64,000 nucleotides of DNA from NCBI RefSeq assembly GCF_017313765.1, contig NZ_JAFLNC010000001.1, forward strand, positions 930,001 through 994,000. Direction: 5' to 3'. The notes under the pieces were generated by a model, which saw only the letters and a list, made by a program, of their open reading frames with translations, was not told the origin of the DNA and did not search any database. The DNA is from Sneathiella sedimenti. Its GTDB lineage: Bacteria; Pseudomonadota; Alphaproteobacteria; Sneathiellales; Sneathiellaceae. Shown one piece after another: positions 3,789 to 15,094 of this stretch. The position numbers and the translations under genes were made by a program. Position 1 is the first letter of the stretch. Each line of letters starts with the position of its first letter.

Positions 3789-5147
3789 TCAGGGACGGAA
3801 GATTGCGAGGTCGACGGTGCCTTTGACCCCGTCAACATGTCGCCCCTCGCGAAGTTCCAGCTGCGCTTGCGGGGTATATCCCTGCGCCTTGGCAAGCTCC
3901 AGAGTGTCGCGCGTCGTGACGCCAGTGGCTTTTTCATCTTTCGCATGTTTGTCGAGTTTGGCGGCGAGATTGACCGGTTCCCCGATCACGGTGTATTCAA
4001 GTCGGCTGTTATCACCGACCGCGCCGAAAACGATTGCGCCAACGGCAGAGACAAAACGGACGGTCATAGCGGTCTTTCCCTCTGCTGTCCGATCCCTTGA
4101 CCAATCGGCGGCTTCCTTGTTCAGGTCCTCCATTGCACGCAGACAATCGGCTGCGTAATGCGCCGTCGGGACCGCCGCGCCGAAAGTCGCGAGGATACCG
4201 TCACCGAGAAATTTGTCGATGGTGCCCCCATGCTTCTGGATTACGGGCACCATGCGGGACTGATACTCAGCCAGGAGCGAAATCACTTCATTTGCCGGTC
4301 GTTCCATTGAGAGCTTCGTAAATCCCTGCAAATCGCAATGCAGGATCGCCGCCTGCCGGCTTTCGCCGGTGCCGGGCTCGATCCAGCTTTCTGAATGGGT
4401 AATCTGTGCTGCGATTTCGGGCGAGAAGAAGCGCGATAAATCCTCTGCTGCCGTCGCCTGTGCCACCGAATGGATCAGCAGCCGACGTGCCCGCACAATT
4501 ACAAGAGCGAGGATGAGCGTCACCACGAGAATGCTGATTACCTTGTCAAACTCGGCGCCGAGCAGAATCTTGTGGGACATAGTGAACTCGACATAGTTTC
4601 GCGTGATTTGCGCCATTCCCCCGTCAATCTGAACTGCATATCCAAGCAGGACAAGCCAGCCAATGGCCGCTGATGCGCCTGCCAGCAATACATAGGTTGC
4701 CTCGAACCGGAGGGCGCGAAGGGCGATGAAGATAAAGACATATAGAAGGGTTGGCGCCTTCAGGTAAAAGGACGGCGGTTGTTCATACTGGATATGAAAG
4801 CTCCAGATAAGGAACATCAGCAATGCCATGTCGGCGACCACCGAGAGAGCGATAAACCAGGCGGGCATCTTGCTGAAATAGGCGAGCAACAGGCGAAGGG
4901 CCGTGAACAGGCCATAAATCATCAAGGCATAGGGCACTGGCGCAAACATGGCGTCGGCCGCGAAGGTTTTTGGCGACAGGGCATAGAGGGTCGAGAATGT
5001 AACGACGATGAACACCTGTACCCAGGCGATCAGTATTTCCGACTGGGTTTGCTGCCGCGTAATGGCGTCCTGTACGCGGGCGGGGAGTTTCCCGTCGATT
5101 TCCTCACCGAGAATGGCTCTTTTTATGTTTCTCCACATTCCCACCAT
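3789..5147 (-). CDS. Membrane-anchored class III adenylate/guanylate cyclase
   Basis: Predicted to make a cyclic nucleotide from ATP or GTP at the cytoplasmic face of the inner membrane. Residues about 35-220 hold roughly six hydrophobic helices; the catalytic domain spans about 262-450. Metal-binding aspartates are D272 ('HCDLQGFT') and D316 ('FLGDG'). The base-reading positions are K312 and E390 ('IGEPVN'), where adenylate cyclases usually have Lys plus Asp or Thr. The transition-state asparagine N393 is present, but the usual arginine four residues later is a lysine (K397). The domain looks active but nucleotide choice is uncertain. It stands alone and is convergent with the permease operon, with a three-base gap. 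Confidence 0.85.
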   Translation of the reverse strand: MVGMWRNIKRAILGEEIDGKLPARVQDAITRQQTQSEILIAWVQVFIVVTFSTLYALSPKTFAADAMFAPVPYALMIYGLFTALRLLLAYFSKMPAWFIALSVVADMALLMFLIWSFHIQYEQPPSFYLKAPTLLYVFIFIALRALRFEATYVLLAGASAAIGWLVLLGYAVQIDGGMAQITRNYVEFTMSHKILLGAEFDKVISILVVTLILALVIVRARRLLIHSVAQATAAEDLSRFFSPEIAAQITHSESWIEPGTGESRQAAILHCDLQGFTKLSMERPANEVISLLAEYQSRMVPVIQKHGGTIDKFLGDGILATFGAAVPTAHYAADCLRAMEDLNKEAADWSRDRTAEGKTAMTVRFVSAVGAIVFGAVGDNSRLEYTVIGEPVNLAAKLDKHAKDEKATGVTTRDTLELAKAQGYTPQAQLELREGRHVDGVKGTVDLAIFRP

Positions 5148-13375: not shown

Positions 13376-15094
13376 TCAGACCGTGAAATACGGGAGGCGG
13401 CGGGCGTTTTTTACAATGTAAATGCCGAGTGGTTCAACCCGACCGCGGATGTCCACGCTTTCATGTTGAAGTTCTGAAAAATCCTCCGCCACAAGATTTG
13501 CCACCTTGTCCGAGAAAATAAGCTGGCTGGAATATTCCTTGGTAAGTGCTTCAAGGCGGCTTGCCGTGTTAACTGGGTCGCCGATTGCCGTGACTGAAGT
13601 GGCGCTGCCATAACCCATCTGACCGACAATGACCTGCCCGACATGGATGCCAATCCCGATTTTTAGGGGGGCCGGTAGATCCAGTTTGAGGTTCTGGTTC
13701 ATGATCTCAAGCTCTTCGGCCATTGACCGTGCGGCATTTAAGGCCATGCGACTAGCAGTCTTGCTGTTTTCGTTGAGGCCGAAGAGCGCCATGACGCCAT
13801 CCCCAATGAATTTATCCAGATGCCCGCCATTTTGCTCGATCGCCTCGCCCATATGGCGGAAATACTGGTTGATTACGAACACCACATCATAAGGCAGCTT
13901 CTGTTCAGAGAATTTGGTGAAAGCCCGTAAATCAGCAAACAGGATTGCGATCTCCCTCTCCTGTCCCTGGAGATAGGCGGGTTGGTTGAAGGCTTGGCGT
14001 ACGGTTGCGGTGGCCGGCAGCAGCGGGATAACAGATATATCCCCGCTCGGAATGCTCTGGCAGGCGAGGCGGGTTCCCTCCGGGGCGCCCACGCGGCGAA
14101 GCACAGCAATTTCCTTGTCGCTTGGCGGGTTTAGTTTATCCCAACCCTCCGTGATGCGGACGCGACAAGTGGAGCAACGTCCACGTCCGCCGCAAACCGA
14201 CGCGTGTGGAATATTGCCAAGTTGGCTTGCCTCAAGGATTGAAAGACCAGGGGCGGCCAGAACGACTTTCTCTTCGGGGTAGGAAATGACATTAACCTTC
14301 CGTCGGCGATAGCGGATAGTCCAGTAGACCCGACTGATGACTAACAGGCCAAGAGCCGCAAACATCACTTGAAATCCGATATCCCGGGTCGAATACGCCC
14401 ATCCAATAAGGTCGGGGGGAAGATTGAGGCGGGCAAAAAACGCGTCTCGCCATTCTGTATCGGCGAATAGCCGTTCTGCCTCGTTTGCGCCGTTGATGAA
14501 TCCGCTTAACGAGAGAACCGGCAGTATCAGCGCAAGACTATAAAGGACAGGTAGTATTTTTCCATACCAGGGCTTTAGTCGGAGCCAGAAATGCACACCC
14601 AGACATCCGTGAACCCAGGCGATAATCAGCGCGACGCTTTGCAGCAGCGCCTGGATCGGGGTCGCTATCCACAGGCTGAACAGCACATAGCTATAGCTGT
14701 CTTCGATGCCATATACTTCATGGGCGACCCGTGTGCCGATGATATGCAGGACCAGCAGCGGCGGAATCAAAAGTCCGAGGATTATCTGAAATATATCCCT
14801 GCCAGCCAGGCGTCGGTACGAGCGATGCCGAAGAAGCTTGTAGAATACCAGGGCAATGTGAAGGATGATGGCGCCGAGCAATAATATGGTGCCGGGAACG
14901 CTGCGCCAGAAGGCTAGGAATATATCCCGGCCCACCTCCATCGCATTCAGCGAGATAAGCCCTAAGGCATGATTGAGAAGATGACCGGTTAGGAAGATCA
15001 TCAGCACAAGGCCGCTTGCCAGCCGAATCCGATCCGGCCGAAGGGCCATTCGGAACGATAGTGCGAAACGTTTCAGGCCCTTTGCTGTTTTCAT
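13376..15094 (-). CDS. Adenylate cyclase fused to SDH-like membrane anchor and 2Fe-2S ferredoxin domain
   Basis: A 572-residue three-part protein. Residues about 22-262 carry roughly six membrane helices with spaced histidines (H38, H42, H79, H117, H125, H162, H168), like the heme-b binding anchors of succinate dehydrogenase. Residues about 268-355 form a plant-type 2Fe-2S ferredoxin domain with C301, C307, C310 and C345. Residues about 378-565 form a class III cyclase with metal aspartates D388 and D432, adenine-selecting K428 and D506, and transition-state N509 and R513, so catalysis looks intact. Known relative: CyaC of Sinorhizobium, described as a quinone-responsive, heme-anchored cyclase. 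The inference is cAMP production under control of respiratory redox state. Confidence 0.88.
   Translation of the reverse strand: MKTAKGLKRFALSFRMALRPDRIRLASGLVLMIFLTGHLLNHALGLISLNAMEVGRDIFLAFWRSVPGTILLLGAIILHIALVFYKLLRHRSYRRLAGRDIFQIILGLLIPPLLVLHIIGTRVAHEVYGIEDSYSYVLFSLWIATPIQALLQSVALIIAWVHGCLGVHFWLRLKPWYGKILPVLYSLALILPVLSLSGFINGANEAERLFADTEWRDAFFARLNLPPDLIGWAYSTRDIGFQVMFAALGLLVISRVYWTIRYRRRKVNVISYPEEKVVLAAPGLSILEASQLGNIPHASVCGGRGRCSTCRVRITEGWDKLNPPSDKEIAVLRRVGAPEGTRLACQSIPSGDISVIPLLPATATVRQAFNQPAYLQGQEREIAILFADLRAFTKFSEQKLPYDVVFVINQYFRHMGEAIEQNGGHLDKFIGDGVMALFGLNENSKTASRMALNAARSMAEELEIMNQNLKLDLPAPLKIGIGIHVGQVIVGQMGYGSATSVTAIGDPVNTASRLEALTKEYSSQLIFSDKVANLVAEDFSELQHESVDIRGRVEPLGIYIVKNARRLPYFTV

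Follow-up and report, generated by a model that had tools for sequence, protein, structure and literature searches.

The window analysed here, 64,000 nucleotides of Sneathiella sedimenti (contig NZ_JAFLNC010000001.1, positions 930,001 to 994,000 of the forward strand), encodes a protein that, by its sequence, is a further CyaC-type enzyme, in which a six-helix membrane anchor, a [2Fe-2S] ferredoxin domain and a class III adenylate cyclase are joined in one chain. A sequence-only reading had proposed that this protein reports the state of the quinone pool as cAMP; that proposal was right in outline, a quinone-to-cAMP readout by the window protein is plausible, and the enzyme belongs to an already known kind. 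Outside the window, homologues were found that lack the cyclase and overlap a gene for an MscS-type channel, and this channel-linked form of the sensor appears to be new.

The gene, its domains and its neighbourhood

The whole gene for the CyaC-type 6TM-ferredoxin-adenylate cyclase lies on the reverse strand (13376..15094), starts with ATG and yields a product of 572 amino acids, as defined by the list of open reading frames, Pfam and the orthologues. Pfam places a Fer2 domain (PF00111, E 1.7e-8) at residues 275-349 (14048..14272, reverse strand), which also resembles TIGR02007 and NqrF, and a Guanylate_cyc domain (PF00211, E 1.4e-19) at residues 379-560 (13415..13960, reverse strand), with both matches exceeding the curated Pfam cut-offs. 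Together with the six-helix model of the anchor, these matches upheld the earlier claim of three modules on one chain. Orthologues with 56-88% identity occur in 18 Sneathiella/Sneathiellales genomes, and the surrounding gene order is conserved, running GNAT-hisA-hisF-hisE-HIT, the window gene and a PfkB-type kinase gene on the other strand, and amidase-EI24. Ligand invariance, the orthologues and this conserved neighbourhood mark the open reading frame as a real gene, far beyond chance.

A second class III cyclase gene lies in the same window (3789-5147, reverse strand, 452 amino acids), and the host genome contains 20 cyclase-domain matches. Candidate cAMP receivers in the host comprise four matches to cNMP-binding domains. 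A cNMP-binding domain in a 159-amino-acid open frame, located on the same contig about 11 kb outside the window (G000:C1:918940-919188), is a possible receiver of the cAMP signal.

Membrane anchor and predicted heme ligands

The anchor (residues 20-262; 14309..15037, reverse strand) was assigned from an AlphaFold model, hydropathy, loop charge and its relation to TIGR02046. The model, built from 18 sequences (mean pLDDT 70.5, mostly 58-87 in the membrane part), contains six membrane helices at residues 20-46, 66-89, 98-128, 146-171, 177-210 and 229-262. Charges on the loops placed inside were +6, +3, +2 and +4, compared with two positive and two negative, none positive and two negative, and two positive and four negative on those placed outside, suggesting that both termini are cytoplasmic and hence that the ferredoxin and cyclase domains are cytosolic. 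Four histidines sit on helices 1 to 4, bearing out the earlier description of about six membrane helices with spaced histidines. Two are predicted ligands of a distal heme on the outer side, H38 on helix 1 (14981..14983; invariant in the complete members of an alignment of 145 sequences) and H117 on helix 3 (14744..14746; invariant), while two on the inner side are predicted ligands of a proximal heme, H79 on helix 2 (14858..14860; invariant) and H162 on helix 4 (14609..14611; invariant except in the broken frame L026), all with codons on the reverse strand. In the model, H38 and H117 would thus pair at an outer heme, and H79 and H162 at a heme on the cytoplasmic side, next to the ferredoxin domain.

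The proposed likeness of the anchor to succinate dehydrogenase was supported at the level of profiles, though with all scores below the cut-off. The NCBIfam profile TIGR02046 (b558, diheme SdhC) was matched by 23 of 51 diverse anchors (best E 1.4e-5), and the match of one of these anchors (L075) covered profile positions 7-209 of 212, but the best anchor scored 24.8 bits against a curated cut-off of 96 bits. The profile evidence therefore supports the anchor family as probable distant kin of the diheme b558 SdhC rather than as a member of TIGR02046. With the diheme b558 SdhC/FrdC proteins (TIGR02046, Bacillus subtilis type) it shares this distant profile match, and its four histidines on membrane helices are candidate counterparts of the SdhC heme ligands; SdhC/FrdC anchors have five helices and are paired with SdhA/SdhB, whereas the CyaC-type anchor has six and is fused to signalling domains. 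In single-sequence scans, the window anchor alone matched neither TIGR02046 nor Sdh_cyt, and its sole match was to Cytochrom_B_C (E 0.0044, below cut-off). The anchor profile had no match among PDB sequences, no TIGR02046 match was present in 200 Pseudomonadota genomes at E<=1e-10, and the matches listed by a structure search with the full model were all cyclase folds. A structure prediction for the anchor alone, made without an alignment, was set aside (pLDDT 57).

Ferredoxin and cyclase domains

Three cysteines of the [2Fe-2S] site, C301, C307 and C310 (14165..14194, reverse strand), are invariant in all complete members of the family, and the fourth cluster ligand, C345 (14060..14062, reverse strand), is invariant in 145 of 145. 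The sequence-only reading had located these four residues exactly but had assigned them to the wrong type. Plant-type [2Fe-2S] ferredoxins have the spacing C-X4-C-X2-C, whereas the window protein has C-X5-C-X2-C-X34-C, of which CX5CX2C is the spacing of adrenodoxin, putidaredoxin, NqrF and AcsV. The best matches of the domain were to ISC-type ferredoxin, NqrF, AcsV, terpredoxin, adrenodoxin and putidaredoxin. It shares CX5CX2C, the additional distal cysteine and the Fer2 fold, as assigned by Pfam, with the adrenodoxin/putidaredoxin and NqrF domains, and differs from these in its placement inside a sensor cyclase and in the 34 residues ahead of the last cysteine. AlphaFold confidence was low across the domain (pLDDT ~40-60), so the modelled geometry lends no support to a relay.

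The window cyclase has the complete set of catalytic residues (D388, K428, D432, T502, N509 and R513), as had been claimed for it, and its K-T-N-R spacing (0/+74/+81/+85) is that of K410/T484/N491/R495 in the published CyaC. The modelled domain superimposes on S. platensis CyaC (1wc1) with a Z of 24.9 and an rmsd of 2.3 over 185 residues (VIA-align). Across the 133 cyclase domains in the family alignment, the metal-binding Asp pair is invariant (133/133), while the substrate-specifying position is Lys in 105, Gln in 18 and Ala, Gly, Ser, Thr or Asp in the remainder. In about one-fifth of members, including L057-L063, L067, L068, L071, L075, L174, L176 and L177, this Lys is replaced and all redox ligands are intact. 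Members without it may have an altered nucleotide specificity or be pseudo-cyclases.

Relation to CyaC and earlier descriptions

The three-module design is not new, contrary to what the earlier reading had implied, since the architecture has been reported previously (PMC4821796) and CyaC is identical in layout. A cluster of 30 class IIIb cyclases, all alpha- or beta-proteobacterial, was described in 2016 as having four spaced membrane histidines and a ferredoxin that separates the membrane domain from the catalytic one, and two hemes were predicted for it from sequence only (PMC4821796). In members of this Cluster 1 of 6TM class IIIb cyclases, such as Q132R4 of Rhodopseudomonas palustris, the ferredoxin lies between a cytochrome-b-like anchor and the cyclase, with the same four spaced histidines (PMC4821796). 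For CyaC of S. meliloti (SMc01818), the cofactors given in PMC10463352, citing Wissig et al. 2019 (10.1111/mmi.14251), are two hemes B plus a [2Fe-2S] cluster, the latter drawn in its Fig. 6. According to the same account, ubiquinone oxidises or reduces CyaC and so affects its activity, and the enzyme is active after oxidation by quinones (PMC10463352). The published cyaC gene is adjoined by a TetR gene, cycR.

A homologue from Sinorhizobium sp. K101 (L079), when read from a TTG start, has exactly the published CyaC numbering (K410/T484/N491/R495), contains Fer2 and Guanylate_cyc domains with all eight redox ligands, and is adjoined by a TetR gene as published for cyaC/cycR. The numbering, the TetR neighbour and the Fer2 domain together indicate that CyaC has the same architecture, and is not a relative without the middle module; judged from these sequences, S. 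meliloti CyaC is a three-module protein like that of the window. The earlier reading of CyaC as a quinone-responsive, heme-anchored relative therefore stood as to kinship but not as to CyaC being merely heme-anchored, since it has the ferredoxin module as well (L079; PMC10463352). The window protein and CyaC of Sinorhizobium meliloti share the 6TM tetra-His anchor, the [2Fe-2S] domain, the class III cyclase and the K-T-N-R spacing, with ~41% identity to Sinorhizobium CyaC over the anchor and Fer2 domain. They differ in that cyaC has its TetR (CycR) neighbour, whereas the window gene has none and lies between HIT and PfkB-type kinase genes. By analogy, the Sneathiella protein would carry the same cofactors as CyaC, with the cluster as a relay.

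Conservation and distribution of the redox module

H38, H79, H117 and H162, together with C301, C307, C310 and C345, are kept in every complete member of the 145-sequence alignment, the exceptions to the eight-ligand set being two truncated or edge fragments, the broken frame L026 and the anchor-less L080. All 24 alignment columns with at least 97% identity fall in the anchor and ferredoxin and none in the cyclase, although this comparison is biased by the ~12 sequences that have no cyclase. As the histidines and cysteines are invariant while the substrate-specifying Lys varies, the redox ligands appear to rank with the residues under the strongest constraint in the whole protein.

The search for the domain architecture across genomes that had been suggested as a check found the anchor-ferredoxin module in 111 of 385 alphaproteobacterial genomes (~29%; E<=1e-20), compared with the 30 sequences of Cluster 1. 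In a sample of the phylum Pseudomonadota, the module was present in 45 of 398 genomes, 14 of them outside the Alphaproteobacteria. A plasmid of Hymenobacter volaticus (L080:2977-3903) encodes a soluble Fer2-cyclase that has the four cysteines but no anchor, with Asp at the aligned Lys position. In Rhizobium sp. ACO-34A (L081:2499-5674), genes for a cyclic-nucleotide-binding protein and an MBL-fold hydrolase precede the family gene on the same strand.

Cyclase-less modules beside MscS-type channel genes

The first homologues without a cyclase (L072 and L074) were each followed by a large MscS-family gene (Pfam MS_channel). A search of relatives gave eight genomes with a cyclase-less anchor-ferredoxin module (G049, G415, G131, G431, G446, G460, G435 and G427), from two families, in which module and MscS gene lie together (L074:2920-6008 and L157:1-2940, forward strand; L158 and L152-L156, reverse strand). 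In all eight, a start codon in the frame of the adjacent MscS-type gene overlaps the TGA stop of the module by exactly four nucleotides. All eight redox ligands are kept in the cyclase-less members, with H38 of G415 lying beyond the start of its contig. In a tree, the seven cyclase-less members whose sequence could be used fall into a single clade (support 0.93), within which the six from one genus group together with a support of 1.0 and L074 sits on a long branch. Within the genus of G131, a close homologue of the channel (58-72% identity over the full length) accompanies the cyclase-less module in all six genomes that carry it and is absent from the 30 others examined, which contain only more distant MscS genes (at most ~47% identity). 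At cyclase-bearing loci, no MscS-type gene was present in the retrieved flanks, which exceeded 2 kb at about 40 loci and were under 1 kb downstream at the others, where one could be missed. No report tying an MscS gene to a ferredoxin or to heme or quinone was found in the literature searched, which covered few subscription journals.

Since the cyclase-less modules all overlap an MscS-type gene, the module appears to be a portable sensor that can serve at least two kinds of output. On this tentative interpretation, to which we give slightly less than even weight, the anchor and ferredoxin would form a quinone/heme/Fe-S sensor that acts either on a fused cyclase or on a translationally coupled MscS-family channel gated by respiratory redox.

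Several other candidates were rejected as cyclase-less forms and are not counted above. In L112 (G354) and L113 (G064) the cyclase continues in another frame, and L049/L100, G194 and G242 are explained by contig edges. The frame breaks in L112 and L113 fall between ferredoxin and cyclase and may reflect sequencing or assembly error, or decay.

Proposed mechanism

By analogy with CyaC, the window protein probably senses the quinone pool through two b hemes and a [2Fe-2S] relay or reporter, such that cAMP would track respiratory redox. The six-helix anchor would bind one heme near the outer face (H38 and H117) and one near the cytoplasmic face (H79 and H162), and these hemes would equilibrate with the ubiquinone pool. 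The cytosolic [2Fe-2S] domain would sit between the inner heme and a homodimeric class III cyclase, where it could either relay an electron or report the redox state of the anchor by conformation, and the cAMP output would follow the respiratory redox state, with the oxidised form active as reported for CyaC. We infer from this arrangement an electron path from quinone through heme and Fe/S to the cyclase. The retention of the ferredoxin with the anchor even where there is no cyclase is as expected if it is part of the redox pathway.

That same retention bears on the alternative that survives best, in which the hemes sense the quinone pool while the [2Fe-2S] cluster provides a second, independent input. 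The cluster would then exchange electrons with reductants of the cytosol, such as NAD(P)H or ferredoxin reductase, or respond to NO, oxygen or the availability of iron, and the cyclase would integrate membrane and cytosolic redox. The Hymenobacter fusion (L080) indicates that the ferredoxin-cyclase joint can work without hemes; however, no anchor in the family of the window gene, even among cyclase-less members, occurs without a ferredoxin, which links this domain to the anchor no less than to the cyclase, although the query included the ferredoxin and so was biased against finding such anchors. On balance, a second input is somewhat unlikely. Less likely still is a purely structural role, in which the cluster (or the hemes) would shape the linker into a stiff coupling element and would carry no electron flow, regulation being conformational. 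The linker that joins the ferredoxin to the cyclase is short and shows little conservation (mean column identity 0.37 versus 0.63 for Fer2), which is compatible with mechanical coupling, but the eight ligands are fully invariant across very divergent anchors, and nearly every adrenodoxin-type domain characterised so far serves as a redox carrier. Finally, it is highly improbable that the anchor is mainly a transmembrane electron-transfer enzyme, passing electrons from quinol or an external donor to a cytosolic acceptor with the cyclase as an accessory, because, although anchor-Fer2 proteins without a cyclase could be self-standing redox units, this standalone form is rare (the eight genomes above) and always accompanied by a channel gene, which is itself a candidate output, and in most members the module is joined to a cyclase whose metal sites are intact.

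Implications

The distribution of the module suggests that quinone-to-cAMP signalling is widespread in the Alphaproteobacteria and not a rhizobial speciality, and, because none of the eight ligands varies, the function of the iron-sulfur domain is open to direct test. The occurrence of the same putative sensor with a different output offers a natural experiment that could reveal where in the protein the signal is carried, and, if the coupling to the MscS-type gene is real, it would represent an unreported redox-linked channel of the mechanosensitive type.
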